From Streptomyces antimycoticus (lineage in GTDB: Bacteria > Actinomycetota > Actinomycetes > Streptomycetales > Streptomycetaceae), in contig NZ_BJHV01000001.1 of assembly GCF_005405925.1 (NCBI RefSeq), positions 3,658,001 through 3,722,000 of the forward strand: a stretch of 64,000 nucleotides of DNA, in the 5' to 3' direction. Numbering within the stretch: position 1 is the stretch's first letter; each line of letters starts with the position of its first letter. A program made the translations under genes and the position numbers. Shown here piece by piece: positions 13,301 to 62,430 of the stretch. The notes below the pieces were generated by a model. It saw only the letters and a program-made list of their open reading frames with translations, searched no databases and was not told the DNA's origin.

Positions 13301-14625
13301 GGTGACCCGCTGCCCCTCGGTGTCGATGGCCACGTAGTAGCCCCGGAGTGGCGGATCGCCAGCGGGTTCCCGGCCACGGCGCGTTCGATGTCGATGCGGG
13401 CGCCGTTGCGGCCCTGGAGGCTCTCCAGGGCCAGGTAGACCGCGCCCGGCTCCTCCGTGGCGGCGGGACGGACGAACGTCCGCACCACACCCGTCTCCGG
13501 ATCGGTGACCGTCATGACACCGTCCGGCTTGCCGTCCCACTCCAGCGGCCACCGCGCACCCTTCGCGGGCAGCGTCGGCACCCCCGCCTCCGGCACCGGA
13601 TACACCAACCGCATCCCGTCCGCGGCGGCGAACACCACGCCCTCCGCGTCCAACTGGACCCGCTCGTCCAGCAGGCTGGCCCAGGTCGGGCCGAACCACA
13701 CCCCGCCCCGGTACGAGGACACATGGGTGCGCTCGAAGACCAGCGGCAACGACCCGGGCAGCCTCAGGTCGGTCTGCTCCATCAACATCGCACCCGTCGC
13801 GATGTCGATCGGCTCACCCGTACAGGGGCACTTCTTGGCCGGGCGGGCGGCCGGGCCCTCCTCGATGAGGTTCGGGCGCATCGAGGGCACCTTGGGGGGC
13901 TTGAGCAGGTTCGGGACGCCGGTGAGCTTGGGCATCACACCGGGCTTGAGCACCCCCAGCCCGGCGCCGAAGATACCCCCGTCGATCATGCCGTCCCTGG
14001 CGGCCTGATTGACCTCCTCCAGGCTGAAACCCTTCTGCTGCCCCAGAGCGATCTTCACCGGCTGCGCCACCGCCGCGTCGATCGTCACCGACAGCACGCT
14101 CGTGAAAACCGCGCCGGTGAAGATCTCCGCGGCCAGCGTCGCCACCGCCTCCTCCACCGCGATGCCCAGCCCGCTGGCCATCGCGATGATCTCCGCGGCC
14201 ACCTCGTCCGAGGCGCCCCCGGTGAACGGGGTCAGCAGGAGACCGCCGACCAGCGCAGCGGCGTCGATCGCGATCTGCGCCTTCAGCGCGTCGATGGCGT
14301 CGTCGACCTTGTCGGCGAACTTCTCCAGGAACTTGGCCATGTTCCGGGCCGACTTGGCGAGATTGCTCAGCCAGCCCTCGTCCTTGCCCTTGGCGTAACG
14401 CCCCCAGAAGGTCTCGAAGGCGTCGATCGCCTCGCCCTTGTTGTGGTGGATGAGCGTCGTGGCCGCCTTGTCGGTCGCGACCCGCACATCGTCCACACTG
14501 TCGGCGAACGTCCGCCAGGCGTCGGCCGCGTGGCGCAGCGTGCCGGAGTTGGCGTCCGGCCACCACATGCCCAGCTTCATCAGCAGGGCTTTGGCCTTGT
14601 CCTCGATATCGCTGCCGAAACTCAC
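10364..14625 (-). CDS. RHS/YD-repeat polymorphic toxin (one-base frameshift)
   Basis: If the missing base is restored the product is 1420 residues. Order: a helical secretion-type domain (residues 1-210, with AWRTFADSVDDVRVATDKA and a hydrophobic Gly/Ala-rich stretch); a DUF6531-like entry domain from about residue 268 (CPCTGEPIDIATGAML); many YD repeats (YDxxGxLT...); the RHS core end (PLRFPGQYADPETGLHYNYF ... DPLGLDPGP, about 1258-1300); then a 108-residue variable tip after DALGLK. The tip (TPYRGRFPQTANPGEVLVRR ... HVVEMKKHVNPKTGEVYYNW) resembles the Ntox24-type toxin domains, a tentative match. The frame breaks at the CCCC of 13341-13344: ...AIRHSG then GYYVAIDTEG in the next frame. GTG 14625 overlaps the upstream stop. 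Confidence 0.9.
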
Positions 14626-15017
14626 CGATGGCCACCCGCGCCCGGACCCTGATCATGACCCGAGCCGTGCTTGGCCTTGGTGAACATCCCCTCGATCAGC
14701 TTGTCGTTGTCGACATGACCATCCGCCATGTCGTTCATCGCCTCATAGATGCTGGTCAGCCCGAGAACGAGAATGCCGGCCGCCGACTCGATGTGCTTCT
14801 GATTCGGCTCGTACTGCTTGCCGAAGTCCTTACCCGGCTTGTCATCCCCCCACGGCTCCCCAAAGCCGTCCAGCGTCGTGATCAGCTTGGTCAGCGCCTC
14901 GCTCAGCTTCACCGCCTGGTGGTGGAACGTCGGCGCGACCGACTTGATGTCCGCCACCTTGATGTCCAGAACCTTGCCGCCGCCGTGCCCGCTGCCACTG
15001 CCGCTGCCGCCGCCCAT
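14622..15017 (-). CDS. WXG100-like protein upstream of the RHS toxin
   Basis: 131 residues: a Gly/Ser-rich N-terminus (MGGGSGSGSGHGGGKVLDIK) followed by helices (HHQAVKLSEALTKLITTLDG, then IESAAGILVLGLTSIYEAMN), a size and layout like WXG100/ESAT-6-type secretion partners. ATG 15017 has GGGGAGG seven bases upstream; the open frame continues to 15080 without another good site. Its stop overlaps the GTG of the RHS gene by four bases, so partner and effector are coupled. It may serve as the secretion partner of the RHS protein; this is inferred from arrangement. Confidence 0.78.
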   Translation of the reverse strand: MGGGSGSGSGHGGGKVLDIKVADIKSVAPTFHHQAVKLSEALTKLITTLDGFGEPWGDDKPGKDFGKQYEPNQKHIESAAGILVLGLTSIYEAMNDMADGHVDNDKLIEGMFTKAKHGSGHDQGPGAGGHR

Positions 15018-15196
15018 GCGACGCCTCCCCCGTTGAGCGTTTGCGGTACAAAGCTCCCAGGCTAGGGCGGCGATCATCATGGACCGTTCAATGTGGTCTC
15101 TACAACGAGCAAAGAGTGCCGACCACCGCGTCGCCGCCCTGATCCGGGCTGGTGAGCTTGTGTCCTGGTCCCGCGTCAGTCCTTCGAAGGAGAGTC

Positions 15197-16134
15197 ATGT
15201 CCTTCCCCGAGCTTCCCCAGCCTGCGCCTGGTGAAGTGCTGTTGGTCTGCACCTGCTACAAGGACGGCGAGGCCCTGTGGGGCGGGCTGATCGACGGGAT
15301 CGGGGGCCGCCGGGAAGGCGACGCGCTCATCCTCGGGGCGGGGTGCGGCTCCGCCTGGTCGAAGGCCGCGGATGGGACCACCTGCACGGCGGTAACGTAC
15401 CGGCGCTTGTCCCGGGCGGCGGCCCCGTGCCGCCCGTCGTCGTCCTGGCGGACATCTCTGTGGTGTACGGCGGGGACGGGCCGTTGCTGGTGGACCTGGC
15501 GGTGATGCCCGGTCGCGGTGTCCGGGTCCCGCCGGCCCGGCTCGGCGAGATCCTGGCCGCTCTGCTGTCCGGCGCGCTCGCCTTCGAGGACCTGGTGCGC
15601 AACATGGACGTGTACGGCATGTACCAGGGCGACGGCGGGCGACCGGCCTTCCCCACGCCGACGGTGCCGCCGCTCCGGTCCTTCCCCGCACTGCCCTCCA
15701 CCGACGTGGCCCTGCTGGTCCGAACCTCCTTCGACGACGAGGACGGCTGGCGCGCTCTGCTCGACGAGCTGGGCGGGGCCGACGAGGACAGCTGGGTCGG
15801 CGCGGACCTGGACCCGGATGAGATCGATCCGGAGCACTACCCGTTGACCGCGCTGGTCGTCGACGACCGGGCCTTCGAGGGCCTTGGGCCGGGCCAGGTC
15901 CCTGTGCTGGTCCCGCCCACGGAACACACCACGCTGGTCGCGCTCGCCGACGCCAGGACCTTTGCCGAGCCCGGCCGGCCACTGACCGTCGTCGACCTGT
16001 ACGACACCCCGGGGCAGTCCGCCGTGCTTCCGTGCCGCCAGGTCGGCTCAATGGCGTGCAACCTGGAGATCAGCAACATGGACTTCCACGAGTTCGTCGC
16101 CGTGGAGGGCACAGTGCCGTGGTGGGAGGGGTGA
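15197..16134 (+). CDS. Tandem DUF6924-like protein (one-base frameshift)
   Basis: Restoring one base gives 312 residues with two related halves. The second half (about residues 165-312: LLVRTSFDDEDGWRALLDEL ... ALVVDDRAFEGLGPGQVPVL ... CNLEISNMDFHEFV) matches the DUF6924 pattern seen in actinomycetes. The first half is a diverged copy (LLVCTCYKDGEALWGGLIDG ... VPPVVVLADISVVYGGDGPL ... FEDLVRNMDVYGMY). The frame changes at the GGGG of 15335-15338: ...GDALILG continues as GGVRLRLVEGRGWDHLHGGN one frame back. ATG 15197 follows AAGGAGAG. Function of the family is not known. The break is most likely a sequence error. Confidence 0.7.
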
Positions 16135-16143
16135 TCAGCGATA

Positions 16144-16737
16144 TCAGCGGCGGGTGAGGTGGGTGAGGGTGACGCCGTTGGGGAAGGCGGTGCGTTCGGC
16201 GACGTCGAAGATGGTGGGGTCGAAGGCGCCGTCGAAGACCGGGACTCCGGCACCCGCGACGACTGGATAGTTCTTGATCACCAGCTCGTCGACCTCGGGC
16301 AGGAGGGCACCCGCCAGCTTGCCACCGCCACAGAGCCACACGTCCAGCTCCGTGTCCTCCTCCCGCTTGAGCTCGCGTACGAGGGCGAGCGGGTCGCCCG
16401 GGACGACGGTGACGGCCGGGTCGATGTCGGGCTTGAGGGTGCTGGACACCACGTACTGACGCAGATGCGCGTACGGACTGCCGACGCCCGCGTCCAGGGC
16501 GGGGCGGTAGGAGCCGAGGCCCATGACGACGGTGTCGAAGTGGCGGTTGGGCGCGTCGGCCAGGCCGACCGCGGCGCGGTAGGCGGTCGGGACCGTCTCG
16601 GGAAACAGCGTGGTGGTCCAGGCCGAGTAGGCGGCGGACTGCTGTTCGTCGCCGCCGGGGAAGAAGTCGTACTCGCCGCCGGGGCCCGCGATGCGGCCAT
16701 CGAGCGTGACGGCGACGTAGTAGACGAGCTTTCGCAT
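16144..16737 (-). CDS. Dihydrofolate reductase/RibD-C family protein
   Basis: 197-residue cytosolic oxidoreductase-like protein of the RibD C-terminal superfamily (begins MRKLVYYVAVTLDGRIAGPG; later HFDTVVMGLGSYRPALDAG, VVSSTL, DVWLCGGGKLAGALL and the C-terminal VVAGAGVPVFDG). The GGGKL motif and the VTLDG start are the NADPH-binding features of this group; many members are uncharacterised, and true dihydrofolate reduction is not implied. ATG 16737 has GGAG nine bases upstream. It is divergent from a TetR regulator with two palindromes between them, so it is probably the target of that regulator. Confidence 0.85.
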   Translation of the reverse strand: MRKLVYYVAVTLDGRIAGPGGEYDFFPGGDEQQSAAYSAWTTTLFPETVPTAYRAAVGLADAPNRHFDTVVMGLGSYRPALDAGVGSPYAHLRQYVVSSTLKPDIDPAVTVVPGDPLALVRELKREEDTELDVWLCGGGKLAGALLPEVDELVIKNYPVVAGAGVPVFDGAFDPTIFDVAERTAFPNGVTLTHLTRR

Positions 16738-16754
16738 CGTTGGCCGCTCCATTC

Positions 16755-16792
16755 GTAGTACTCTACTTGAAGTGGTGTGAACGTAGTACTAC
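16755..16792. promoter_or_regulatory. Paired palindromes in the DHFR-like/TetR divergent region
   Basis: GTAGTACTCTAC at 16755-16766 (arms GTAG/CTAC) and the perfect palindrome GTAGTACTAC at 16783-16792 share the core GTAGTACT, spaced 28 bases start to start. They lie between the divergent starts at 16737 and 16809, the expected site for autoregulation by the TetR protein. Confidence 0.7.
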
Positions 16793-16808
16793 AGATGGAG
16801 TGGTGTCA

Positions 16809-17387: not shown

Positions 17388-17490
17388 GCGGGGCGGCGGA
17401 GTAGGAGTGGCGGCGGCGTAGGAGTGGCGGCGGCGTAGGAGTGGCGGCGGCGTAAGCGGGGCGGCGGCGTAAGCGGGGCGGCGGGGCGGG
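17388..17490. repeat. GC-rich degenerate tandem repeat after the TetR gene
   Basis: About six units of 14-16 bases built on GGCGGCGTAGGAGTGGC and GGCGGCGTAAGCGGGGC follow the TetR stop. They encode nothing convincing. It is a low-complexity array in the convergent gap to the XRE gene (17388-17563). Confidence 0.8.
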
Positions 17491-17563
17491 TGGGCCCCGC
17501 TCATCCCATCTACGCGCCCGCCCGCTCAGGTTCTGTGCAGGGTCTGTTGCGGACGGTTCGACA

Positions 17564-18397: not shown

Positions 18398-18514
18398 GTT
18401 CGTTCCAACAGTCAGGGTAGGACTGGCCTTCCCAGGAACTTCTTTCCCTTACCTCCGGCTCGCGGCGGTCACAGGCTGGTGCTCGACAACGGATCACGAG
18501 CACAGGAGGACACC

Positions 18515-20474: not shown

Positions 20475-21223
20475 CTACTTCTCTACGTACCGCAGCGACC
20501 GAAGCCCCCGCTCCAGGTGCCAGTGCAAATACGCCGCCACCAGCCCGCTGCCCTCCCGGGCGTGCCGCAGCTCACACGCGTCCGCCGTCTCCCAGTCCCC
20601 CGTCAGCAGCGCGCCCAGCAGCGTCAGCGACTCCGCCGAGGGTACGACGCTTCCGGGCACCCGGCACTCTCCGCAGATGACCCCGCCCGCGCCGACCGAG
20701 AAGAACCGGTTCGGACCGGGCATCCCGCACTTGGCGCAGTCGCTGAAACTCGGTGCGTAACCGTTGACCGCGAGCGACCGGAGCAGAAACGCGTCCAGCA
20801 CGAGATGCGGCTCGTGCTCCCCGGAGGCCAGGGTGCGCAGGGCGCCGACGAGAAGCAGATACTGCTGTACGGCGGGCTCGCCCTCATGGTCGGTGAACCG
20901 CTCGGCCGTCTCCAGCATGGCCGTACCGGCGGTGTAGCGGGCGTAATCCGTGACGATCGCCCCACCGTACGGCGCGATCGTCTCACTCTGCGTGCACAGC
21001 GGCAGCCCGCGGCCGATCAGCTCGCCACCACCGCGCGAGAAGAACTGCACGTCAACGTGGCTGAACGGTTCGAGCCGCGCCCCGAACTTCGACTTCGTCC
21101 GCCGCACCCCCGCGCGACGGCGCGGACGCGGCCGTTGTTACGGGTGAGCAGGCTGATGATCCGGTCCGCCTCACCCAGCTTCTGGGTGCGCAGCACGATG
21201 CCGTCGTCGCGGAACAGACTCAT
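20475..21223 (-). CDS. recO: DNA repair protein RecO (one-base frameshift)
   Basis: Recombination mediator that loads RecA on gapped DNA with RecF/RecR. The two reading frames together give a normal 249-residue RecO: N-terminal OB fold ([39 protein letters not shown]), then [20 protein letters not shown] in the next frame, and the zinc knuckle CAKCGMPG ... CGEC near residues 160-185. The break is the CCCCC of 21107-21111: a sixth C gives RGVRRTKSK, the family sequence. A true loss would be unusual for this conserved gene, so an error is likely. ATG 21223; an upstream in-frame start is possible. Confidence 0.93.
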
Positions 21224-21413
21224 GCCGCCCATTGTCCCCCAGCGGGACAGATGATCGAACCGCCCTGCCTTCACGGCCCGGGCAAACGCCCGGAGGGCGG
21301 CGGGGGTGGTGGCGATCACGGTATGGGGTTCGCCGCTCTCGCGGAGGAGGATCGCGGCGAGCCGGTGAACGAATGAGGGGTGGCCGGAGAGGATTCCTCC
21401 GGCCACCCCTACG

Positions 21414-24401
21414 TCATCTCAACGGCTGCGTTCCCGCGTCCGAGTTGCCGCGCAGTTTCACGTTCGCCGTGCTCGCGTTCTTGATCGCCGTCTCGATCTG
21501 GGCCATCGACGATCCGGAGTTGACCCCGGGCACGGTCGCGCTGTTCAGGGCGTAGAGCGTGAAGGTGTACGGATGGGTCGAACCGCCAGGGCAGGGGCCG
21601 AAGTACTGCTGGGCGTTGGCGCCGCTGCCCATGGCCTTCTGTTTGGCGCCGCCCTGGCCGGGGACGTTGAATCCGGATGCCAGCGCCTCGGGCAGGGAGA
21701 GCTTGGCCGCCGGGATGTCCCAGATCGCCCAGTGGAGCTTGTTGCCGCCGCCTGCGACATCGGCGAAGACGATGGCCCAGCCGCGCGCGCCGGTGGTTCC
21801 GGCGCCCCAGGCGAACGGGGGCGAGGGGTCCTGGCCCGCGGTTCCGTCGCCGGCGCAGGTGTGGCGGTCCGGGATGGTCGCGTTGTCCTTGAAGGCGCTG
21901 CTGCTCAGCTTGAACTCACCGGCGGTGCCGTCGTCCGAGTAGACGATGTCGATCCGCAGGATGCGGTCGTTGCCATCGGTGCCGTCCTTGTCGGTGGAAG
22001 TGGTGAGCCAGATGTCACCGTCGTGGTCGACCTCGACCGTGCGCAGCCGGTCGTAGGTGCCCTGGAAGTACGTCTTCTGCTCGACGAGGTTGGAGGCGGA
22101 GTCGATCCGCATCCGGTAGACGCGCTTCCCCACGGTGGTGGCGACGAAGACATGGTCATTGATGATCGTCAGGCCGCTGGGTGAGGCCGAGGAGGTCGAC
22201 CAGGTCTTCTTCGGCGCGATGTAGCTGGAGTTCGAACAGTCGCCGTCGGTGCCCTCGCAGTTGGGCCAGCCGTAGTTGCCGCCCTTCTGGATGAGGTTGA
22301 CCTCGTCCATGACGCTGTTGCCGAACTCGGACTCCCACAGCCGGCCCTTGGAGTCGAAGTCCAGGCCCTGCGGATTGCGGTGGCCCAGCGACCAGACGGC
22401 GTTGCCGAAGGGGTTGTCGGACGGGATTGAGCCGTCGGGGTTGATCCTGAGGATCTTGCCGTTGAGCGAGTTCCGGTCCTGCGCCCGCGATTCGGTCTGG
22501 GCGTCGCCCATGGAGGCGTACAGCTTGCCGTCGGGGCCGAAGCGCAGCCGTCCGCCGTTGTGGAAGCGGCTCTTCTCCATGCCCTGGAGCAGCACCTTGT
22601 AGCCGCTGAGGGTGTTGTTCTCCAGCGTCATCCGGGCGATGCGGTTGCCTTCGCTGGAGGTGTGCACGAAGTAGAGGTAGTGGTCGGTGGCGAAGGTCGG
22701 GGAGATCTCGAGGCCCAGCAGACCGCCCTCACCGCCGGTGGTCTGGGCGTTGGGCACCTTGCCGACCAGGGTCTTCGTGCCGGACTTGGTCAGCTTGTAG
22801 ACGTTGAAGGTGTTGCGCTCGGTGAAGATGCCGGTGCCGTCGGGCAGGAAGCCCAGGCCCCAGGCCACGTCCACGCCGCTGGCGATGGTGCTGACCGTGC
22901 CGGGGTCGGGGGTGCCGCCCGGCTGGGTTGCGGAGGTGGTCACCGTGATCTCGGGCGTGAAGGGGGACTTGTTGCCCTTGAGGTCGTACGCCCTGACCTT
23001 GAAGGCGTACGCGGTGTTCGGGGTCAGGCCCGCGACGCTGGTGGAGGTGGTCTCCGAGGTGCCGGACAGGGCGCCGTCGCGGTAGATCTCGTAGCCTGTG
23101 ACCTTGACGTTGTCGCTCGACGCGGACCAGCCCAGATCGACGGTCGTGGCCGTCTTCGAGGGGGAGGTCAGGTTGGCCGGGGCGGTCGGCGGCTCGGTGT
23201 CGGGCGGCGCGGGCAAGGTCGCGATGGTGACGGCGTTGGATGCCTCGGAGGCGTTCCCGGCCGCGTCCCGCGCGAAGACGGTCCAGTCGTACGAGGTCTC
23301 GGGGTCGAGGTTCTCGACGGTCGCCGCGAGGACGTCCGCGCCGACCTTCTTCATCAACTGGCCGTGCTGATAGATGTCGTAGCCGGTGACGCCCACGTTG
23401 TCGGTGGCCGCGTCCCAGGCCAGCGAGACGGTGGTGGCCGTAGGCTCCTCGTCCTTGCGCAGATTCGCCGGGGCGGTCGGCCGCTCGGTGTCGGCGGGGC
23501 CGGTCGGGGTGACGGTCAGCTTGTCGAGGTTGGGGCCGTCGGCGCCGGAGGTGGTCGCGCGGACCGTGTTGCCTCCGGCCTTGAGCGTGGCGTTCACGCT
23601 GACCGTCTTCCAGGTGGTCCAGGCGCCGGTGGCCGGGAAGGAGAGGCCGTCGGCGACGGTGCCGCCGTTGACGGCGATGTCGAGCGGGCGGTCGGCGGAG
23701 GCGCTGGCGTAGCGGAAGTCGAGCCGGGCGGGGCCGGCCTGTGCCGCGTCGACGGTGAATTCGACGTAGGCGCCCGTGACCACGTCGAAGTTGACGAATC
23801 CGGTGCCGGAGTGACCGTCGTGGTTGGACTCGACGGCGCCCTGGGAGATCTTGGCGGATTCGGCCTCGTAGTCGGTGCCGGCCGGTCCGTCGGCGGCGGT
23901 GACGTCGATGTAGTCGAGGTTGGGCCCGCCCTCGGCCGCCGCCGAGGTGGTGCGGATGGTGTTGGCACCGGGCTTGAGGGTGACCGTGGTGGTCACGGAG
24001 CCCCAGTCGGTCCAGGTGTCGGTGGACGGGAACGCCAGGTTGTCCACCGCCTGGTCGCCGCCCACGGCGATGTCCAGCGGGCGGTCGGCGGCTGTGCCGT
24101 TGGCGTAGCCGAGGGTCAGGGTGGCGCTGCCCGCGGCGGGGGCGTTCACCGTGAACTCGACGTAGGTCCCGGCCGCGTTGTCGAAGTTGACGAATCCGGA
24201 GCCGGAGTAGCCGGCGTGGTTGGACTCGGCCGCGCCCTCGGAGATGACCGCGGACTCGGCTTCGTACCGCACGGGTGCGGCGGCCTTCGCGTCGAAGGGC
24301 TGGGCCGCGCTGATGTTCGGCAGCGTGATGGTCAAGGCCGCGGTGGCCGCGGCCAGGAAGGCACCGACCGCTCGGCGCGGTCTGCGGGGGATGGGCGCCA
24401 C
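21414..24401 (-). CDS. Secreted CBM-FN3-sugar dehydrogenase-PEBP protein
   Basis: 995 residues, secreted by a Sec-type signal (RRPRRAVGAFLAAATAALTI ... AAQPF). Domains in order: two CBM6/35-like modules (about 45-170 and 175-300; each has EAES and SGFVNFD or TGFVNFD); two fibronectin type III modules (305-395, 400-495); a PQQ-type glucose/sorbosone dehydrogenase propeller (505-820; GLGFLPDGTGIFTERN, LLGLEISPTF, LGHRNPQGLDF, GGNYGWPNCEG); and a PEBP/YbhB-like domain (827-990; FKLSSSAFKDNATIPDRHTC, PPFAWGAGTTGARGWAIVFA, HWAIWDIP, YFGPCPGG). It probably oxidises aldoses on a bound polysaccharide. GTG 24401 follows GGAGG. An operator-like palindrome sits 20 bases upstream. Confidence 0.93.
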   Translation of the reverse strand: MAPIPRRPRRAVGAFLAAATAALTITLPNISAAQPFDAKAAAPVRYEAESAVISEGAAESNHAGYSGSGFVNFDNAAGTYVEFTVNAPAAGSATLTLGYANGTAADRPLDIAVGGDQAVDNLAFPSTDTWTDWGSVTTTVTLKPGANTIRTTSAAAEGGPNLDYIDVTAADGPAGTDYEAESAKISQGAVESNHDGHSGTGFVNFDVVTGAYVEFTVDAAQAGPARLDFRYASASADRPLDIAVNGGTVADGLSFPATGAWTTWKTVSVNATLKAGGNTVRATTSGADGPNLDKLTVTPTGPADTERPTAPANLRKDEEPTATTVSLAWDAATDNVGVTGYDIYQHGQLMKKVGADVLAATVENLDPETSYDWTVFARDAAGNASEASNAVTIATLPAPPDTEPPTAPANLTSPSKTATTVDLGWSASSDNVKVTGYEIYRDGALSGTSETTSTSVAGLTPNTAYAFKVRAYDLKGNKSPFTPEITVTTSATQPGGTPDPGTVSTIASGVDVAWGLGFLPDGTGIFTERNTFNVYKLTKSGTKTLVGKVPNAQTTGGEGGLLGLEISPTFATDHYLYFVHTSSEGNRIARMTLENNTLSGYKVLLQGMEKSRFHNGGRLRFGPDGKLYASMGDAQTESRAQDRNSLNGKILRINPDGSIPSDNPFGNAVWSLGHRNPQGLDFDSKGRLWESEFGNSVMDEVNLIQKGGNYGWPNCEGTDGDCSNSSYIAPKKTWSTSSASPSGLTIINDHVFVATTVGKRVYRMRIDSASNLVEQKTYFQGTYDRLRTVEVDHDGDIWLTTSTDKDGTDGNDRILRIDIVYSDDGTAGEFKLSSSAFKDNATIPDRHTCAGDGTAGQDPSPPFAWGAGTTGARGWAIVFADVAGGGNKLHWAIWDIPAAKLSLPEALASGFNVPGQGGAKQKAMGSGANAQQYFGPCPGGSTHPYTFTLYALNSATVPGVNSGSSMAQIETAIKNASTANVKLRGNSDAGTQPLR

Positions 24402-35259: not shown

Positions 35260-36661
35260 GCGGTGGCCTCCCTGGGCGCTGCGACGGTCTGTCCGGTGCC
35301 CGTACGGCCGCCGGGCGCGCCGCCCGGCCCCACGGCAGCGCGGCCCTGATCGCGAAGCCTGGGCCGTCCTCGCGCGGTCCGGCGGTCAGGCTGCCTGCGA
35401 CGCTGCGGGCCCGCTCGCGCATGCCGACGATGCCATAGCCCGGTTCGGCGGGCGCGGTAAGGGGCTCACCGTCGCCGTGGGGGCCGTCGTCCACGGCGGC
35501 GACACACAGCTCCCCCTCGTCCCGTACGAGCGTGATCCGCACCCGTGTGCCGGGTGCGTGGCGGACGGCGTTGGTCAGGGCCTCCTGCACGATCCGGTAC
35601 GCGGCCGCGCCCACGGCCGGCGACAGTTCGGCCGCCTCCACGCCGACCGTAAGGTCCACGCGTACGCCCGCCGCCTCCGCCGCCGCGGCCAGGTCGGAGA
35701 GCCCGGCGAGCCCCGGCAGCGGGCCGATGTCCTCCTCGTCCACGTCACCGGCCTCGCCGTCCGCGCCCCCGCGGAGCACCTGGAGGGTGGCCCGCAGCTC
35801 CGCGCGGGCGTCCCGGCAGGTGTCGGCCATCGCGTCGAGCGCCTTGGCCATCGCCTCGCGGTCCAGCCGCTCGGGATCGGCGATCAGGACATGGGCCGCG
35901 ACGGAGGTCTGGACGCCGATGAGGGTGATGCTGTGCGCGAGCAGATCGTGCAGATCGCGCGCGATGCGCAACCGTTCCTCGGCGACCCGCCGGGCCGCCT
36001 CCTCCTCGCGGGTCCGCTCGGCACGATCGGCCCGCTCCAGGATCGCGGCGATGTACTTACGGTGGATACGGACCGCCTCGCCGATCACCACGACCGACAG
36101 CACCCAGCCGGAGCTGCGCAGCATGTTGGCGCCGGCCTGCACATTGCTCCCCAGGGTCATCATCGTCACCATGCCCGCGAGCAGGATGCCGACCGTAAGG
36201 AAGGACCGCAGCGGCGGGCCGGTCACGGCGAGGGTGTAGACGGCGAGGAGCCCTGCCGGGACGACCGCGATATGGACGTTGTCCATGGCGTGGTAGGGCC
36301 CGACCATGAGCACCACGGCCGCGGTGACCACCATCGGGCTATGCCGCCGCCCCACGAGCGCCACGGCGCTGACGGTGAGCAGCGCCCAGCCGAACGCGTC
36401 GGGGCGATGGCCGTTCCGGTCGAGGTTGAGCAGGGCCAGTGTGATCTGCAGGACCAGCACCGCACCGGCGACCCCGGCGTCCACCCGCCGCCGCCTGCGG
36501 GCGTCGTCCCGGGTCTCCGCGGGGCGGGGGCCGCTGTGCAGGGCGCGCAGCACGGAGGCGAGCGCGCGGTGGGCGGTGAAATGCGCCGTGGAGCGCGCGG
36601 CGGGGTGCGCCGGTGGGGTGGTCGCGGAGTGGGTCGCGGAAGGTGCGGGCACGGGCTCCAT
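35256..36661 (-). CDS. NarL-type sensor histidine kinase (one-base frameshift)
   Basis: 468 residues after repair. Several membrane segments (about residues 55-190) and a short cytoplasmic linker precede the HisKA_3 dimer helix with the phospho-acceptor in ARDLHDLLAHSITLIGVQTS, then the HATPase region (YRIVQEALTNAVRHAPGT, AAVDDGPHGDGEPL, GYGIVGMRERA). Membrane-bound partner of the response regulator. As given, the frame misses its stop because of the CCCC at 35328-35331; a fifth C yields ALPWGPGGAPGGRTGTGQTV-AAPREATA and a TGA overlapping the regulator ATG, the expected end. ATG 36661 is the best visible start but has only a weak ribosome binding site. Confidence 0.9.
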
Positions 36662-36795: not shown

Positions 36796-39029
36796 TCAGC
36801 CGCCCCGTACGGCCGGTTCGGGACGGGCCTCGGGGCCGGAGGGCCCGCCCTGGCCTCCCGACGCCGAGGAGGCCGACGACGGCGATGAGACCGACGAGGC
36901 GGGTGTACGGCGGAAGAGGGCACCCGGCCACCACACCCATCGCTTCAGCAGCAGGCTCGCCGAGGTCACCAGATACGTCCGTACGAGGAAGGTGTCGAGC
37001 AGCACGCCGACCGCCACCACGAACCCCATCTCGACCAGCATCACCATCGGCAGCGTGGCCAGCACCGCGAAGGTCGCCGCCAGCACCAGACCGGCCGAGG
37101 CGATCACCCCGCCCGTAGTGCGCAGTGCGGTCACGGCCGCGTCCGGGACGTCCGCCCCGCGCAGCGACTCCTCCCGCATCCGGTGCATCAGGAAGATGCC
37201 GTAGTCGACGCCGAGGGCGACCAGGAAGACGAAGGAGAGCAGCGGCAGCCCGGGGTCCACTCCGGCGAAGCCGAAGACCGGGTCGAAGAAGAGCCCGCCG
37301 ACTCCCATCGCGGCGCCCCATACGGCGACCACGGCGACGACCAGGACCAGCGGCGCGACGAGACTGCGCAGCAGGGCCGCGAGGATCAGCAGCACGGCGA
37401 TCAGCACCAGCGGGATGACCAGCATCCGGTCGCGGGCGTTGGTGTCCTTCAGATCGAGCTGCTGGGCGCTGGGCCCGCCGACCACCGCGTCGGCGTCCTC
37501 GACCCGTACGAGACCCGAGCGCAGGGCGTGCAGGGTGGCGGTCTCCCCCGCCGACTGCGGGGCGCCCCGGGGGAAGACGTCGATCTCCGTCCAGCCGCCG
37601 CCGCTGCGTCCGCGGTCCGCCCGCGCGACCCCCTCCGTGTCGCGCGCCCGCCGCAGCACCTCGTCCGCCCCCGTGGTGCGCGTCATCACGCTGATGGGCT
37701 GGCTGCTGCTGTCCGGATAGGCGTGGGCGAGGGTCTGGGCCGCGGCCACCGACTCGGGCTTGTCGGTGAAGGTGTCGTCCTGTTTGAGGTCGCCGGGCAG
37801 ATTGAGCACGCCGATGGCCAGGGCGCCCAGCAGCGCGGCGCCGGCGAGCAGGACGGCTCCGGGCCGGTGGCGGGCCGAGGCACCCATGGCCTCGAAGAAC
37901 CCGCGCCGGGTCGCCCGCGGCTCACTGCCGTAGGTCGGGATCAGCGGCCAGAACACCCGCCGTCCCAGCAGCACCAGCACCGCGGGCAGCAGCGTCATCA
38001 TGGTCGCCAGCGCGCAGACGACCCCGACCGCGCCGACCGGGCCCAGTCCGCTGCTGCTGTTGAGGTCGGCGGCGAGCAGGCACAGCAGCCCGGCGGCGAC
38101 GGTGCCGCTGGAGGCGAGCACGGCCGGACCGCAGCCGCGCAGGGCCTCGCGCATCGCGTCGTACGGGGCGCGGTGGCGGCGGAGCTCCTCGCGGTAGCGG
38201 GAGACGATCAGCAGGGCGTAGTCGGTGCCCGCGCCGAAGACCAGCACCGTCATGATCGAGGAGCTCATGCTGGTGACGACGAGGTCGAAGCCCTGGACGA
38301 GGCCGTAGACGATCGCCATCGCGGCCATGGCGGCGACCCCGACCACCCCCAGCGGAACCAGCCACAGCAGGGGGCTGCGATAGGTGATGATCAGCAGCAG
38401 GGCGACCACCCCGGCAGTGGCGAACATCAGCGTGCCGTCGGTGGAGGCGAAGACCTCCTGCGAGTCGGCACTGAGCGCCCCTGGACCGCCGACCTGGACG
38501 CTCAGGCCCTCAGGGTGTGAGGCGAGCTCGGCGCGGACGTCCTTGACGGCGTCGGCCCGCTCCTTCTCGTCCGTCACGCCGGTGAGCGCCATGGCGTACA
38601 TCAGGGTCGTGCCGTCCTTGGACGGTATGGCGCGCGGCGCCTGCCCCCGACGATGTCGTGGCGCCCCGCCACCTCGGCGACCTTCCCGCCGGCCGCCTTA
38701 CGGTCGGCGTCGGTCAGCCCGCCGTCGCGGTGGTAGACGAGGACGAGGTCGATGGTGTCGCCACCGGGCAGCCGCTCCTGGAGCCGGGCCACCTGGGTGG
38801 AGTCGGCGCCCGCCGGGAGGTAGTCGACGGCCGTGTCCCGCTTGACGCCCTCGAGCTTGCCCGCGAACGGGACGGCGACGAGGAGCAGCAGCACCCAGCC
38901 CGCGATGAGCGCCCAAGGCAGTGAGCGGCGTCGCTTGCCGCCGGGCCCGGAGGGCGGCCCGGCCGCGGAGGGCGGCGCCGCGTCCGATTGATGGGGATCG
39001 CTCGGGATCCCTGACGATGTCGTCTGCAT
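36796..39029 (-). CDS. MMPL/RND-family exporter (one-base frameshift)
   Basis: 744 residues when repaired; MMPL-type transporter with two sets of membrane segments: first helix LPWALIAGWVLLLLVAVPFA, a periplasmic-type loop (AVDYLPAGADSTQVARLQER), a five-helix bundle with GAGTDYALLIVSRYREELRR, a second loop, and the second bundle with ALGVDYGIFLMHRMREE. The two GxxxDY motifs are the family hallmarks. The N-terminal 140 residues are in another frame; a sixth C at 38644-38648 gives VGGQAPRAIPSKDGTTLMYA, joining them. Exports lipid-like or drug substrates in relatives. It precedes the kinase/regulator pair on the same strand, so the two-component system may sense the same stress. Confidence 0.92.
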
Positions 39030-45350: not shown

Positions 45351-48335
45351 TTACGGGAGGATCGGCGTCGGCTGGAAGGTCAGCGAGGCCGAGCCCGACG
45401 ACGGGCTCAGGCCCGGGGCGCCGCCGAAGGAGGCGGTGTAGGTCGAAGCGGTGAGGATGGTCGGCGGGACGGTCACATTGCTGAGCGTCGCCGTGCCGCT
45501 GGCGTTGGTGACCGCGCTGCCCAGCGCGATCGGGCCCAGCAGCGAGTTGGCGACGAAGGTGAGGGTCTGGCCGGAGACCGGGTTGTTCGACGCGTCCCTC
45601 AGCGTCGCGCTCAGGGTCGGGATGACCAGCGTGCCGTTGAACCGCAGACGGATGGTGGCCGGAGTGGCGGTCACGGTGGTCCCGGACGGCGCCGCGCCCA
45701 CGTTCTGGGTGATCGTCGGCGAGGTCGAAGGGCCGAAGCAGCCGTCGCCGCTGTAGGTGGCGGTGACCGTGTGCGCTCCGGTGGTGAGGGCGTTGGTGCT
45801 GGCCGTCGCCACGCCGGAGGCGTTGAGCGTGCCGGTGAGGGTGGGCCCGCCGCTGATCACGAAGGTGACGGTCCCGGTCGGTGTGCCCGTCGCAGGCGGC
45901 ACCGCGGCCACGGTGGCCGTGAAGGTCACGTTCTGACCGGGCGCGGACGGGTTCGGCGAGGAGGTGAGCGTGGTCGTGGTGGCCGCCTGGCCGATGGTGA
46001 CGGTGCCGGTGGCCGACGAGCCCGCGACGCCGGTGTTCCCCGCGTACGAAGCCGACACCGCATGCGCGCCGGCCGGGATGGCACTGGTCGTCACACACGC
46101 CTGACCATTTGCGTCGAGCGTCCCGGTCAGCGTCGGACCACCCGCGATCGTGAACGTCACCGTCCCGGTCGCGGTGCAGGTGCCGGGCGACGTCGGGGTC
46201 ACCTGCGCGCACAGGGTCACCGGCTGGCCGCACACCGGCGAGGCGGGCGTGATGGTCAGCGTGGTCGTGGACGCGGCCTGGCCGACGGTGATGGAACCGG
46301 TGGCCGACGAGCCCGCGACGCCGGTGTTCCCCGCGTACGAGACCGTCACCGCATGCGTGCCCACCGGAATGGCACTGGTCGTCACACACGCCTGACCATT
46401 TGCGTCGAGCGTCCCGGTCAGCGTCGGACCACCCGCGATCGTGAACGTCACCGTCCCGGTCGCGGTGCAGGTGCTGGGCGGCGTGACCGTCACCTGAGCA
46501 CACAAGGTCACCTGCTGGCCGCACACCGGTGAGGTGGGCAGGAAGGACAGCGTCGTGGTCGAGACGCCTTGGTTGACCGTGACGGACCCGGTGTCGGACG
46601 AGCCCGCGACGCCGGTGTCACCGGAGTAGGTGGCCGTCACCGCGTGGGGGCCGACCGGGATGCTGGTGGCCGTCACGCATGCCTGGCCGGTCGCGTCGAG
46701 GGGCGCGGTCAGGGTCGGACCACCCGCGATCGTGAAGGTGACCGTTCCGGTCGGGGTGCAGGTGCCGGGCGGTGTCGTGGTGACCTGGGCGCACAGGCTG
46801 ACCGTCTCGCCGCATGACACCGTGCTGGGCGTGATGGTCAGCACGGTCGTCGAGAACGCCTGGTTCACCGTGACGGAGCCGGTCCCCGTCGAGCCCGTGA
46901 CGCCCCCGTCGCCCGCATAGGTGGCGGTCACGGTGTTGGTGCCGACCGGGATGGCATTGGTGGTCACGCATGCCTGGCCGGTCGCGTCCAGCATGCCCGT
47001 CAGGGTCGGACCACCCGCGATCGTGAAGGTGACCGTGCCCGTCGGGATACAGGTGCTCGGCGGTGCGACGGTCACGTCCGCGCAGATGGTCACGGGCTCA
47101 CCGCAGACGGTCGGGCTGGGCGAGACGCTCACCGTGGTGGTCGACATGCCCTGACCCACGGTGAACGACGCCGAGCCGGTGGAGCTCCCGACACCCGTGT
47201 CGCCCGCATACGTGGCCGTCACGGTGTACGACCCCGCGGTCAGGTCGCTGGTGGTCACGCATGCCTGGCCGGTCGCGTCCAGCATGCCCGTCAGGACCGG
47301 ACCGCCGGTAATCGTGAAGGTGACCGTGCCCGTCGGGATACAGGTGCTCGGCGGCGTCGTGGTGACCTGGGCGCACAGGGTCACCTCCTCACCGCAGACC
47401 GGCGCGGCCGGGGACACCGTGACCGTCGTGGTCGAGGCTCCCTGGCCGACCGTGACCGTTCCGGTGCCGGTCGAGCCCGCGACATCCCCGTTGCCGTTGT
47501 AGGTGGCCGTCACGGTGTGCGTCCCCGCCGGGATGTCGCCGGCCGACACGCACGCCTGGCCAGTCGCGTCGATCGCGGCGACGACCGTCGGAACACCGTC
47601 GACGGCGAACGTCACCGTGCCCGTCGGGGTACAGGTGCCGGGCGGCGTCGTGGTGACCTGGGCGCACAGGGTCACCTCCTCACCGCAGACCGGCGCGGCC
47701 GGGGACACGGTGAGGGTCGTGGTCGAGTCGGCCGGGTTGACGGTGAGCGGCGTCAAGGGCGAGTTGGAAGCGGCGAAGTTGGTGTCGCCGTTGTAGAACG
47801 CGGCGACCTGGTGCGTGCCGACGCTCAGGGCGGGGACGGTGACGGAGGCGTTCCCGGCGGCGTCGAGGGCCCCGGTCATCGTGGGCCCGTCCGCGCTGAC
47901 GATGAAGGTGACCGTACCGGTGGGTGTGCCGTCGCCCGGGGACACCGCCGCCACATTGACGGTCAGTGTCACGCTCTCCCCGCAGACGGGCGCGGGTGGA
48001 ACGAAGGTGACGGTGGTGGTGGTCGCCGACTGGTTGACCAGCTGGATGGTCGTGCCGGACGAATTGTCGCTCGGGTCGGTGGAGTTGACGAAGGTCGCCG
48101 TGACCACATGGGGGCCGGCGGCCAGTGGTGTGGAGTCGGTCACGCTGGCCATACCGGAATCGGTCCCGGTGGCGGCGAGCGTCACGGGGCCGATGGTCGG
48201 GCCACCGGCGATGGTGAAGGTCACGTCTCCGAACGGAGGAGTCCCGGCGGTGATGCCGGTGACGGTGGCGGTGTAGGTGACGGTTTGACCGAAGACGGAG
48301 GGATTCGGCGTGGAGGTCACCACAGTGGTGGACAT
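45351..48335 (-). CDS. Large Ig-like repeat protein without signal peptide
   Basis: 994 residues made of about ten Ig-like (bacterial Big/BID-type) domains of ~95 residues. Domains 3-8 are near-copies, each with PVCGEEVTLCAQVTTTPP, TCTPTGTVTFTIAGGP and GQACVTTSAIPVGTHAVTAT-type strands and four conserved Cys, a pattern pointing to an oxidising environment. The first and last two domains lack these Cys. ATG 48335 (MSTTVVTSTPNPSVFGQTVT) has no signal peptide, membrane segment or sorting motif; the frame upstream to 48434 adds none. DNA repeats are nearly identical between domains, so copy number may vary. Adhesin- or matrix-like role inferred. Confidence 0.87.
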   Translation of the reverse strand: MSTTVVTSTPNPSVFGQTVTYTATVTGITAGTPPFGDVTFTIAGGPTIGPVTLAATGTDSGMASVTDSTPLAAGPHVVTATFVNSTDPSDNSSGTTIQLVNQSATTTTVTFVPPAPVCGESVTLTVNVAAVSPGDGTPTGTVTFIVSADGPTMTGALDAAGNASVTVPALSVGTHQVAAFYNGDTNFAASNSPLTPLTVNPADSTTTLTVSPAAPVCGEEVTLCAQVTTTPPGTCTPTGTVTFAVDGVPTVVAAIDATGQACVSAGDIPAGTHTVTATYNGNGDVAGSTGTGTVTVGQGASTTTVTVSPAAPVCGEEVTLCAQVTTTPPSTCIPTGTVTFTITGGPVLTGMLDATGQACVTTSDLTAGSYTVTATYAGDTGVGSSTGSASFTVGQGMSTTTVSVSPSPTVCGEPVTICADVTVAPPSTCIPTGTVTFTIAGGPTLTGMLDATGQACVTTNAIPVGTNTVTATYAGDGGVTGSTGTGSVTVNQAFSTTVLTITPSTVSCGETVSLCAQVTTTPPGTCTPTGTVTFTIAGGPTLTAPLDATGQACVTATSIPVGPHAVTATYSGDTGVAGSSDTGSVTVNQGVSTTTLSFLPTSPVCGQQVTLCAQVTVTPPSTCTATGTVTFTIAGGPTLTGTLDANGQACVTTSAIPVGTHAVTVSYAGNTGVAGSSATGSITVGQAASTTTLTITPASPVCGQPVTLCAQVTPTSPGTCTATGTVTFTIAGGPTLTGTLDANGQACVTTSAIPAGAHAVSASYAGNTGVAGSSATGTVTIGQAATTTTLTSSPNPSAPGQNVTFTATVAAVPPATGTPTGTVTFVISGGPTLTGTLNASGVATASTNALTTGAHTVTATYSGDGCFGPSTSPTITQNVGAAPSGTTVTATPATIRLRFNGTLVIPTLSATLRDASNNPVSGQTLTFVANSLLGPIALGSAVTNASGTATLSNVTVPPTILTASTYTASFGGAPGLSPSSGSASLTFQPTPILP

Positions 48336-48689
48336 GGAAGCGGCCCGCCCTTTCCTGATCTCAGGGGGATGAGCCGCCCGGCTCCGCGCTGCGCATGCCA
48401 CGCGGAGCCATGGCCTCTGCGCGGGGGTGCCCATACGGCCGACCTGTCTACGTCAGGCAAGACAAGTCGACTGTCCCCCGACAGAGGTATGGGCGACCCA
48501 CCAGTCGGTATCTGCAAGTAAGCGGGTGCCTACGCCAGATGGGCCAGGGAGCGGACGGCTATTCCACTCGTATGGCGCAGCGCGGCCCGCGCGTTGCCGA
48601 TGCGCTGGCGCGGCGGCCCGCTGTCGCACAGGCGGTGCCGCACCCCGGCGCGTGCCGCGGGAGCGCGGCGCTGCGGGCTGCGGGCTGCG

Positions 48690-50634: not shown

Positions 50635-51638
<1,004 letters not shown>

Positions 51639-53119: not shown

Positions 53120-54039
53120 TCAGCGCCGTTTGGGCAGCGCCACCGTCATCAGGTCCTCGGCGACCGTGAGCTCCCCTCGAACCCCGCCGCCCGCGCCTGG
53201 CGCTCGAAGTCGGACGGATCGCCGTAACGCTGCGAGAAGTGCGTCAGCACCAGATGCCGCACCCCCGCCCCGGCCGCGACCCGGGCCGCCTGCCCGGCGG
53301 TCAGATGCCCGTACTCGACGGCCAGCGCCTCCTCCTCGTCCAGGAAGGTCGACTCGATGACCAGCAGATCGCACCCCTGCGCCAGCGCGAAGACGCCGTC
53401 GCACAGCCGGGTGTCCATGATGAACGCGAAGCGCTGCCCCCGGCGCACCTCGCTGACCTCTTCGAGCGTGACCGTACGCCCCCCGATCTCCAGCGCCCGC
53501 TCCCGCTGCAGCCGACCGATGTCCGGGCCGCGGACGCCGAGCGCGGCGAGCCGCTCGGGCAGCATCCTGCGGCCGTCCGCTCCGATCAGGCGATAGCCGT
53601 AGGACTCGACGGGGTGCGAGAGCCGGGCCGCCTCCAGGGTGTACGCGGGGGTGCGGGCCAGCACCGCGCCGTCACCGGCGACCGGCTCCTCGGTCAGCGC
53701 CACCGTCTCGCGGTAGGCGGTCGCGTACCGCAGCCGCTCGAAGAACCGCTGTCCGCTCGCCGGGTAGTGGGCGGTCACCCGGTGCGGCACCCGGTCGAGG
53801 TTGATCCGCTGGATCACCCCCGCCAGGCCCAGCGAGTGATCCCCGTGGAAGTGCGTGACGCAGATCCGGTCGATGTCATGGGCGGCGACCCCGGCCCGCA
53901 GCATCTGGCGCTGGGTGCCCTCGCCGGGGTCGAACAGCAGGCCCTCGCCGTCCCAGCGCAGCAGATAGCCGTTGTGGTTGCGGTGCCGGGTCGGCACCTG
54001 GCTGGCGGTGCCGAGGACGATCAGTTCCCGTGCGGACAA
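53120..54039 (-). CDS. rnz: Ribonuclease Z (one-base frameshift)
   Basis: tRNA 3'-end processing endonuclease of the metallo-beta-lactamase fold; 306 residues when repaired. Metal motif [20 protein letters not shown], later His/Asp sites in [29 protein letters not shown] and [20 protein letters not shown]. The frame as given ends in junk after [10 protein letters not shown]; one more C in 53173-53176 gives [20 protein letters not shown] then KRR and a stop at 53120. ATG 54039, three bases after the HIT gene stop. Confidence 0.93.
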
Positions 54040-57143: not shown

Positions 57144-57241
57144 GGCCACATCGTGCCATGCCCTCCACACGGGCTCACCACCGGATCAGCGGTGCTGCGG
57201 GCGTCGGCGGCGCTACGGGCCGTATCCCGTCCCGGAAGCGC

Positions 57242-58375: not shown

Positions 58376-59392
58376 TTACGACTCCGCCAGGATCTGTCCG
58401 ACGTAACGTGCCACTGCGCGTACCGCTCCCATCGTTCCGGGGTAGTCCATGCGGGTCGGTCCGACCACGCCGAGTTTGGCGACCGCCTCGTCGCCGGAAC
58501 CGTAGCCGACCGCGACGACCGAGGTGGCGTTGAGCCCCTCGTGAGCATTCTCATGCCCGATCCGCACGGTCATACCCGAGTCCTTGGCCTCGCCCAGCAA
58601 CTTGAGGAGGACGACATGCTCCTCGAGTGCCTCCAGGACGGGCCGGATCGTCAGGGGGAAATCATGCACGAAACGCGTGAGGTTCGCGGTGCCGCCGATC
58701 ATCAGCCGCTCCTCGGTCTCCTCCACCAGCGTCTCGAGCAAGGTCGACAGCACGATCGAGACGGTCCCCCGGTCCTCCTGTTCGAAGGACTCCGGAAGAT
58801 CCTGCACCAACTGCGGCACATCCGCGAAACGCCGACCCACGACCCGGCTGTTGAGCCGGGCGCGCAGATCGGCCAGCGAGTCCTCGGTGATCGGAGTGGG
58901 GCAGTCCACCATGCGCTGCTCCACCCGGCCGGTGTCCGTGATCAGCACCAGCATCACCCGGGCCGTGGCCAGCGGCAGCAGCTCCACATGGCGCACCGTC
59001 GAGCGGGTCAGCGACGGATACTGCACCACCGCCACCTGCCGGGTCAGCTGTGCCAGCAGCCGGACCGTGCGGCCCACCACGTCATCGAGGTCGACCGCGC
59101 CGTCCAGGAAGTTCTGAATGGCCCGCCGCTCCGGGCTGGACAGCGGCTTCACTCCGGCCAGCTTGTCCACGAAGAGGCGATAGCCCTTGTCGGTGGGGAT
59201 CCGCCCGGCGCTCGTATGCGGCTGGGCGATGAACCCCTCGTCCTCCAGAGCGGCCATGTCGTTACGCACCGTGGCCGGGGAGACCCCCAGCCGGTGCCGC
59301 TCGGTGAGCGCCTTGGAGCCGACCGGCTCCTCCGTCCCCACATAGTCCTGGACAATGGCACGCAGCACCTCGAGTCTGCGTTCGCTGAGCAC
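58376..59392 (-). CDS. hrcA: Heat-inducible repressor HrcA
   Basis: Repressor of class I heat-shock genes that binds CIRCE, aided by GroEL. 338 residues: winged helix [60 protein letters not shown]; then a GAF-like domain and the inserted helical part ([20 protein letters not shown] ... [20 protein letters not shown]). GTG 59392 has GGAGG eight bases upstream; the frame upstream to 60241 is antisense to the MBL gene. A CIRCE element lies 43 bases upstream, so hrcA represses itself and dnaJ. Confidence 0.97.
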
Positions 59393-59434
59393 CCCGCGCA
59401 CCTCCAGTCCAGCGGTCTCATCAGGTCGTCCGCC

Positions 59435-59461
59435 CTGGCACTCACCGGGCACGAGTGCCAG
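59435..59461. promoter_or_regulatory. CIRCE operator upstream of hrcA
   Basis: CTGGCACTC - nine bases - GAGTGCCAG is a perfect 9-9-9 inverted repeat matching the CIRCE consensus (TTAGCACTC-N9-GAGTGCTAA) with the outer bases changed. It lies 43 bases before the hrcA start and 97 bases before the divergent MBL gene. Confidence 0.92.
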
Positions 59462-59557
59462 AACCCCTCCGCCAGTGTACGGCGGGGTGCGGTGGCATGG
59501 GCAAGAGCCGCCGCTGGCAGCAACTCTCCCCCATCCCCGTTGAGCTAGCGTCGCGGT

Positions 59558-60280
59558 ATGGAGACGTGTTGGGAAGAGGCAGGCTGGGAGCGGCTCGCGC
59601 CCGGTGTGGCCCGCCGTCGGTTGCCGGAGTGGGACGAGACGGTCGGCGTGGTCGTCGGCCGGACCGACATCCTCGTCGTGGACACCGGCGCGACCCTGCG
59701 CGCCGGGGCCGAGCTGCGCGCCCTGATCACCCGGCTGACCGGCCGCCGCCCCACCCGGATCGCGCTCACCCATCCGCACTTCGACCACGTCCTGGGCTCG
59801 GCCGCCTTCGCGGGCTGCGAGGTGTACGGGGCCACGGGCATGGACGAGCTGCTGCGCCGGGAGCGGGAGACGCTGCGCGAGGACGCGATCCGCCACGGGG
59901 TGGAACGGAACGCCGCCACCGAGGCCGTGGACCATCTGGTCGGCCCGCACCACCTGGTCTCCGGGGAGCTCACCCTGGACCTGGGCGAGCGGCAGGTGCT
60001 GCTGGCCAATGTGGGGCCCGGCCACACCGCCCATGACCTGGCCGTTCTGGTGCCCGGCCGGCCCGAGGTGGTCTTCTGCGGCGATCTGGTGGAGGAGTCC
60101 GGCACGCCGCAGGCCGGGCCCGACGCGATCCCCGGCCGCTGGCCCGCCGCCCTCGACCGGCTGCTCGCCCTCGGCGGCCCGGACGCGCGGTATGTCCCGG
60201 GGCACGGCTCGGTCGTGGACGCCGGGTTCGTCCGGGCCCAACGTGACGAATTGGCGGCCCGCTTCGGCGTGTCCCTCTAG
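59558..60280 (+). CDS. MBL-fold metallohydrolase
   Basis: 240-residue metallo-beta-lactamase-fold hydrolase. Metal motif [20 protein letters not shown] (HxHxDH variant HPHFDH), His in [18 protein letters not shown], Asp in [12 protein letters not shown], and His in [13 protein letters not shown]. It is a general hydrolase of unknown substrate. Divergent from hrcA with CIRCE between them, although CIRCE faces hrcA. Confidence 0.9.
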
Positions 60281-60365
60281 GCGTCCGCCCAGCCGCCCAA
60301 CTAGGCGTCCACCTAGTTGTCCGCACTACAGGAGCGGGCGGTCGTCGCGCGCTATCGTCATCCGG

Positions 60366-61187
60366 ATGCGACAGTACGACCCGGACCTGACCCCGCCCTG
60401 GAAGCGGCAGCGGCCCGCCCCCGAGGTCCCCGCCGAACCGGACCTCGTCGTGGAGGAGGTCACCACCGGCTTCTGCGGCGCCGTGATCCGCTGCGAGAAG
60501 ACGGCCCAGGGCCCCACGGTCACTCTGGAGGACCGCTTCGGCAAACATCGCGTCTTCCCCATGGAGCCGCGCGGTTTTCTGCTCGAGGGGCGTGTCGTCA
60601 CCCTCGTACGCCCGCGCGCGGCGGCCCCCAGCGCGCCCCAGCGCACGGCCTCGGGGTCGATCGCCGTTCCGGGAGCGCGCGCGAGGGTCGCCCGTGCCGG
60701 GCGCATCTATGTCGAGGGGCGCCATGACGCGGAGCTGGTGGAGCGGGTCTGGGGCGACGATCTGCGCATCGAAGGCGTCGTCGTGGAGTACCTGGAGGGC
60801 GTCGACGACCTGCCCGCCATCGTCGATGACTTCTCCCCCGGCCCGGACGCCCGGCTCGGCGTCCTCGTCGACCATCTGGTGACGGGCTCCAAGGAGTCCC
60901 GTATCGCCGGGCAGGTCACCGGCGAGCATGTGCTGGTCCTCGGCCACCCCTATATCGACATCTGGGAGGCCGTGAAGCCGTCCTCCGTCGGCATCCCGGC
61001 CTGGCCGACGGTGCCGCACGGCCAGGACTGGAAGAAGGGCGTCTGCCGCGCCCTGGGCTGGCCGGAGAACACCGGGGCCGCCTGGCAGCGGATCCTGTCC
61101 TCGGTCCACTCCTACAAGGACCTCCAGCCGGAGCTCCTGGGCCGGGTGGAGGAATTGATCGACTTCGTGACGGCCCCGCAGGGCTGA
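60366..61187 (+). CDS. DUF3097 protein
   Basis: 273 residues, a conserved actinobacterial family of unknown function. It begins MRQYDPDLTPPWKRQRPAPE; the centre GRIYVEGRHDAELVERVWGD, DLRIEGVVVEYLEGVDDLPA has the Glu-then-acidic layout of a Toprim-like nucleotidyl-transfer domain (VEGxHD ... EGVDD), and HVLVLGHPYIDIWEAVKPSS follows. A role in DNA or RNA handling is inferred from that pattern. ATG 60366. Confidence 0.88.
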   Translation: MRQYDPDLTPPWKRQRPAPEVPAEPDLVVEEVTTGFCGAVIRCEKTAQGPTVTLEDRFGKHRVFPMEPRGFLLEGRVVTLVRPRAAAPSAPQRTASGSIAVPGARARVARAGRIYVEGRHDAELVERVWGDDLRIEGVVVEYLEGVDDLPAIVDDFSPGPDARLGVLVDHLVTGSKESRIAGQVTGEHVLVLGHPYIDIWEAVKPSSVGIPAWPTVPHGQDWKKGVCRALGWPENTGAAWQRILSSVHSYKDLQPELLGRVEELIDFVTAPQG

Positions 61188-61198
61188 CGGGTTCCGTC

Positions 61199-62430
61199 TC
61201 AGTCCACCAGGTCCCGCACCACCGCGTCCGCCAGCAGCCGCCCGCGCAGCGTGAGCACGGCCCGCCCCCGTCCGTACGGCTCCGGGTCCAGCAGACCGTC
61301 CTCCAGCGCCCGGGCCGCGGCCGCCGCCCCGGCCGGGCGCAGCAGCTCCAGCGGGCAGCCCTCGACCAGCCGCAGCTCCAGCAGGATCCGCTCCACCCGG
61401 CGCTCCTCGGCGGTCAGCAGCTCCCGGCCCGCGCCGGGCGACCTGCCCTCGCCCAGGGCCTGTGCGTACGCCCCGGGGTGCTTCACGTTCCACCACCGCA
61501 CGCCGCCCACATGGCTGTGCGCGCCGGGGCCGGCGCCCCACCAGTCGGCGCCGCGCCAGTACAGCTCGTTGTGCCGGCAGCGCCCGGCGGGCGAGGTGGC
61601 CCAGTTGGAGACCTCGTACCAGGCGAACCCGGCGGCCGACAGGATCTCCTCGGCGATCAGATAGCGGTCCGCGTGCACATCGTCGTCGGTCATCGGGACC
61701 TCGCCGCGCCGGATCCGCCGCGCCAGCTGGGTGCCCTCCTCCACGATCAGCGCATACGCCGACACATGGTCCGGCCCCGCCCGAGGGCCGCCTCCAGGGA
61801 GGCCCGCCAGTCCGCGTCACTCTCCCCCGGCGTCCCGTAGATCAGGTCCAGGTTCACATGGTCGAACCCGGCTGCCCGGGCCTCGGCCACGCACGCCTCC
61901 GGCCGCCCGGGGGTATGCGTACGGTCCAGCACCTTCAGGACGTGCTGCCGGGCGCTCTGCATCCCGAAGGAGATCCGGTTGAACCCCGCCTCCCGCAGCT
62001 CCGCCAGATAGCGCGGATCGACCGACTCCGGATTCGCCTCGGTCGTGACCTCGACCCCCTCGGCCAGCCCGAACTCCTCCCGGATCGCGCCGAGCATCCG
62101 CCCGAGATCCGCCGCGGCGAGCAGGGTCGGGGTCCCGCCGCCGACGAAGACGGTCTCCACGGGCCGCGGGTCGTCGCCCAGCACCTTCCGCGCCAGCCGC
62201 ACCTCCTCGACGACCTGCTCGGCGTAGTTGTCCCGCGAGGCGAGCACACCGCCGGAGCCGCGCAGCTCACTGGCGGTGTAGGTGTTGAAGTCGCAGTAGC
62301 CGCAGCGGGTGGCGCAGTACGGCACATGCAGATAGAACCCCAGCGGCCGCCGCTCCGCCCCCGCCAAAGCGGTCGCGGGCAGTGCGCCGTCCTCGGGCAT
62401 GGGCTCACCATCTGGCAGTACGGAAGGCAT
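61199..62430 (-). CDS. hemW: Radical SAM protein HemW (one-base frameshift)
   Basis: Heme-chaperone-type radical SAM protein of the coproporphyrinogen oxidase-like family; 410 residues when repaired. The iron-sulphur motif is CATRCGYCDFNTYTASEL near residue 40, then ETVFVGGGTPTLLAAADLGR, EVTTEANPESVDPRYLAELR, NRISFGMQSARQHVLKVLDR. The frame breaks at CCCC 61775-61778: a fifth C gives GRGPDHVSAYALIVEEGTQL, which the second frame continues to HSHVGGVRWWNVKHPGAYAQ and the C-terminal HemW winged domain. ATG 62430. It lies next to hrcA/dnaJ as in many actinomycetes. Confidence 0.93.

Follow-up and report, generated by a model that had tools for sequence, protein, structure and literature searches.

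Eight genes in a 64,000-nucleotide stretch of the Streptomyces antimycoticus genome (the window, G000:C1:3658001-3722000, where G000 is this genome) switch reading frame at short runs of G or C, and the switches are almost certainly sequence errors in the assembly and not real mutations. We conclude this because the losses run in one direction, become more frequent in longer runs, turn up in several sampled parts of the chromosome but not in relatives, and strike the only copy found of an essential gene. G/C runs of about four to six bases, which are common in this genome (11.17 Mb, three contigs, roughly 70% G+C), would have been called one base short, in an assembly that was probably built on long single-molecule reads and not fully corrected with short reads. 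The sequence-only reading of the window had proposed homopolymer under-calling rather than biology, and the one-sidedness of the coding gaps, the run-length trend, the rarity of nonsense changes and a split secY gene, all presented below, bear this out.

The closest relatives of one window gene were found in Streptomyces endocoffeicus (G021), S. milbemycinicus (G022), Streptomyces sp. NBS 14/10 (G023) and S. niphimycinicus (G024). Of these, S. niphimycinicus and S. endocoffeicus are close to the present genome, with identities in the longest window alignments of 94-96% and ~90%, respectively; an earlier sample of relatives was set aside as too distant for comparison. Four regions were aligned to S. 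endocoffeicus: a 504 kb stretch surrounding the window, with 416,845 aligned bases, and the rpoB-secY, ftsZ-mur and gyrB regions. We counted isolated gaps of one or two bases placed in the coding sequence of whichever genome holds the extra base, excluding gaps of more than two bases, those with a second gap or the end of the alignment no more than 60 columns away, those with flanks below 85% identity, and alignments below 75% identity or shorter than 300 columns.

The results show that 31, 2, 7 and 0 gaps in these regions, in the order given, were missing in S. antimycoticus, and none in any region was missing in S. endocoffeicus. Every one of the 40 coding gaps is thus a single base missing in S. 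antimycoticus (two-sided sign test, 1.8e-12), and a stricter count, confined to sequence that the gene model treats as coding in both genomes, gave 25 of 25. The density is 40 in 505,687 bases coding in S. endocoffeicus, or 7.9 per 100 kb. The rate of one error per ~8 kb put forward earlier is right within the window but somewhat too high for the wider comparison, in which the aligned coding sequence yields one per ~12.6 kb. Similarly, comparison with NBS 14/10 gave 15 gaps missing in S. antimycoticus (one of two bases) and one missing in NBS 14/10, and 12 of these 15 losses fall at most 12 bases from a loss seen against S. endocoffeicus. The control pair, S. endocoffeicus and NBS 14/10, has one such gap each way in ~174 kb, which indicates that the breaks are absent from these independently sequenced relatives.

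Furthermore, the frequency of the losses follows the length of the run. Per called G/C run in the coding sequence of S. antimycoticus, we observed 2 events in 77,338 runs of two bases, 9 in 17,751 runs of three, 17 in 4,342 runs of four, 10 in 1,051 runs of five and 2 in 76 runs of six, so that the rate climbs from 0.05% through 0.39% and 0.95% to 2.6% for called lengths of three to six. In addition, G/C runs of six bases are rarer in this genome (18.1 per 100 kb) than in two relatives (23.5 and 28.0). Outside coding sequence, gaps at G/C runs of at least four bases are mostly losses in S. antimycoticus (17 missing, 6 extra).

Could the genes truly be broken, either through decay or in a mutator strain that loses bases in G/C runs? 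The losses are confined to this genome, some lie in dispensable genes, and several genes carry two or three of them, which unconstrained drift would permit. The breaks affect, among others, ctaD (which encodes cytochrome oxidase subunit I; two sites), a citrate synthase gene, a GH84 NAGidase-type gene (three sites), the genes for a PknG-like kinase and a PP2C phosphatase, secY, rpsD, ftsW, murF and the tail of ftsZ. Decaying genes, however, would show gained bases and nonsense changes, and we found no gain among the 40 events and, summed over the four regions, only two nonsense changes in S. antimycoticus (one in S. endocoffeicus) among 144,687 codons. Cytochrome oxidase subunit I and citrate synthase, for which a search for other copies was not made, also argue against decay.

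The most telling case is secY, which is split like the others and shows that genes are hit regardless of how much they are needed. A family search of the genome returned only two halves of one secY locus, and S. endocoffeicus, NBS 14/10 and S. niphimycinicus each carry one intact gene. Bacterial protein export requires SecY, and the protein is essential. Since the split secY is the only one found, the living strain cannot have the sequence that was assembled, and true breakage of the genes is very unlikely. The splits in rpsD and murF are not decisive because second intact copies exist in the genome: one of rpsD (ribosomal protein S4) at G000:C1:8445457-8446053, which the three relatives searched have as well, and a murF-like one at G000:C3:26119-27393, on a 126 kb contig, with a similar second one in S. 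niphimycinicus.

In the window itself, a G/C run of four or five bases is present at all eight coordinates given by the sequence-only reading. The sites are as follows.

13341-13344, minus strand: frame switch in an RHS-repeat gene with pieces at ~10697-13343 and 13344-14628; called by both versions of a frameshift-aware gene model.
15335-15338, plus strand: frame switch in a tandem DUF6924 gene at ~15197-16134; called by the first version of the gene model.
21107-21111, minus strand: frame switch in recO, at ~20475-21319.
35328-35331, minus strand: probable frame switch within the final residues of a histidine kinase whose domains lie in 35291-36661.
38644-38648, minus strand: frame switch in an exporter gene (MMPL according to the sequence-only reading) at ~36943-38894; called by both gene-model versions.
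51090-51093, minus strand: frame switch in phoH, at 50635-51575, for which a family search gives two adjoining pieces.
53173-53176, minus strand: frame switch in rnz, at 53149-54039, close to the C-terminal end.
61775-61778, minus strand: frame switch in hemW, at 61199-62400.

Whether one added base repairs each gene was judged by comparison with relatives and homologues, and seven of the eight switches are supported in this way. The aligned relatives are one base longer at the sites in the RHS gene (one of one), recO (two of two), the exporter gene (four of four), and phoH, rnz and hemW (three of three each), with an open frame across the site in the RHS, exporter, phoH and hemW genes. When the pieces were searched separately, both phoH pieces matched consecutive parts of PF02562, and the recO pieces were likewise consecutive, one matching RecO_C and part of RecO_N and the other the start of RecO_N; the recO of S. 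endocoffeicus is whole. Both hemW pieces likewise match consecutive parts of NCBIfam TIGR00539. The rnz piece covers positions 1-287 of 307 in the RNase Z profile NF000805, leaving approximately the last 20 positions affected. For the DUF6924 gene, two stretches of whose main part match Pfam PF21962, none of the relatives compared gave a DNA match; at the protein level, 107 of 119 homologues match an N-terminal part in a frame other than that of the main part, the change of frame falling at ~15307-15394 in six of them.

The histidine kinase is the part of the earlier claim that is thinly supported. Its HisKA_3 and HATPase_c domains are complete, and the tail of the S. endocoffeicus kinase continues in a different frame of the window (E 1e-5). 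A one-base difference in length was found in one of three relatives; the other two, which are more distant and have shorter kinase tails, show differences of 0 and 5 bases where the tail has diverged. The kinase is the weakest case of the eight, and the switches in both rnz and the kinase touch the C-terminal tail only. Additional breaks could also escape in the ~16.6 kb of the window that has no alignment to S. endocoffeicus under the thresholds used.

It is conceivable, though improbable, that most of the switches are errors but that one or two of the eight, namely that in the RHS gene or that in the kinase tail, reflect true differences of this strain. The RHS gene was compared with a single relative, and relatives differ among themselves in the tail of the kinase; on the other hand, both events have the same form as the others. 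Programmed ribosomal frameshifting at G/C runs would agree with the position of the switches at short runs, but a frameshift of this kind should leave the frames split in relatives too, and the aligned relatives have an open frame across the RHS, exporter, phoH and hemW sites. In G+C-rich DNA, open frames count for little by themselves; the relatives, however, also differ in length at the sites. Moreover, secY is whole in all three relatives and the affected genes have no function in common, which makes programmed frameshifting extremely improbable.

The frameshift-aware gene model, trained on S. endocoffeicus and NBS 14/10, was rejected as sole evidence, as it calls switches at gene overlaps and makes background calls in both of these relatives; therefore, we relied on the pairwise DNA comparison. 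In tests with 80 artificial losses and 80 artificial gains, the first version recovered 59 and 64, respectively. It called ten missing-base and no extra-base switches in the window, finding seven of the eight sites within ~10 bases (the kinase was not among them) and placing three unconfirmed calls elsewhere. The retrained version made 14 missing-base calls and one extra-base call, several of them at gene overlaps, and found six of the eight sites. Unconfirmed calls of the model lie at 14628, 25926, 30473 and 32191. Its missing-base and extra-base calls numbered 68 and 17 in 504 kb of S. antimycoticus, compared with 30 and 13 in 480 kb of S. endocoffeicus and 40 and 13 in 400 kb of NBS 14/10. 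In 22 further samples of 20 kb, taken from the chromosome and both small contigs, the raw calls were 68 missing and 13 extra; the model background applies to these, and one sample overlaps the rpoB region.

Several observations weigh against miscalled runs. The non-coding gaps are less one-sided, with 51 missing and 36 extra in S. antimycoticus, and one of the 34 gaps inside S. endocoffeicus reading frames, near a gene start, runs in the opposite direction. Eleven of the 40 events lie at called runs of only two or three bases, and in three of the 25 strict events the additional base of the relative is a T adjoining a G/C run. Runs of five bases are not rarer in this genome (204.6 per 100 kb, compared with 197.3 and 227.0 in the relatives). 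No break was found in rpoB, gyrB, one dnaE or the ftsZ domain, and the gyrB region holds no event; at the measured rate, however, zero events in these ~11 kb would not be unlikely. A further DnaE-like gene lies in two pieces at G000:C1:2743836-2747023 and was perhaps hit by the same error.

The events are also clustered, with a variance of 3.7 against a mean of 1.5 in 25 kb bins uncorrected for aligned length. One hot spot, G000:C1:3865137-3871603, holds six one-base losses in 6.5 kb, in genes including those for the PknG-like kinase and the PP2C phosphatase, and three losses fall in a single gene ~17 kb before it. Uneven read depth would be the simplest cause of this clustering. There is a slim chance that miscalling depends on some local factor, such as read depth or modified bases, in which case a map of the errors might trace DNA modification in the strain.

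If the sampled density held genome-wide, the record would contain roughly 800 false frame switches, a figure obtained as 7.9 per 100 kb × ~9.9 Mb of coding sequence from regions that were not randomly chosen. Pseudogene counts, claims of lost genes and biosynthetic-gene models drawn from this record should not be relied on, and its completeness score of 99.98 gives no sign of the problem. The main use of the present analysis is as a quality warning on this record.

Two other features of the window may be mentioned. The long minus-strand frame at 45351-48434 is a gene for an internally repetitive protein; in relatives, its DNA gives self-alignments at many offsets. The protein of 995 residues encoded at 21414-24401 has, beside close Streptomyces relatives, whole-length ones in Lentzea and Amycolatopsis, with 55-67% identity in the best segment.

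Errors of this type are already known from long-read assemblies of Streptomyces, and the present case is an ordinary one, although real as an observation. In one report, 70, 295 and 335 differences separated PacBio-only Streptomyces assemblies from the versions corrected with short reads, the great majority being single-base insertions in homopolymers, which the authors link to the G and C runs of Streptomyces; the reads were in hand there, whereas the platform is only inferred for the present genome (PMC6923854). In Streptomyces albus SM254, long-read polishing left 205 indels, almost all of them in homopolymers of G or C; in 7.17 Mb this amounts to one per ~35 kb, compared with one per ~12.6 kb of aligned coding sequence here (PMC4832174). 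In Kastor, relatives are likewise used for detection, and gene-fragmenting deletion errors are tied to homopolymers, most of them after four to five equal bases. In the Kastor MinION assembly, at 59% G+C, A/T runs dominated, whereas the present genome, with few long A/T runs, is affected at runs of G and C (PMC12007338).
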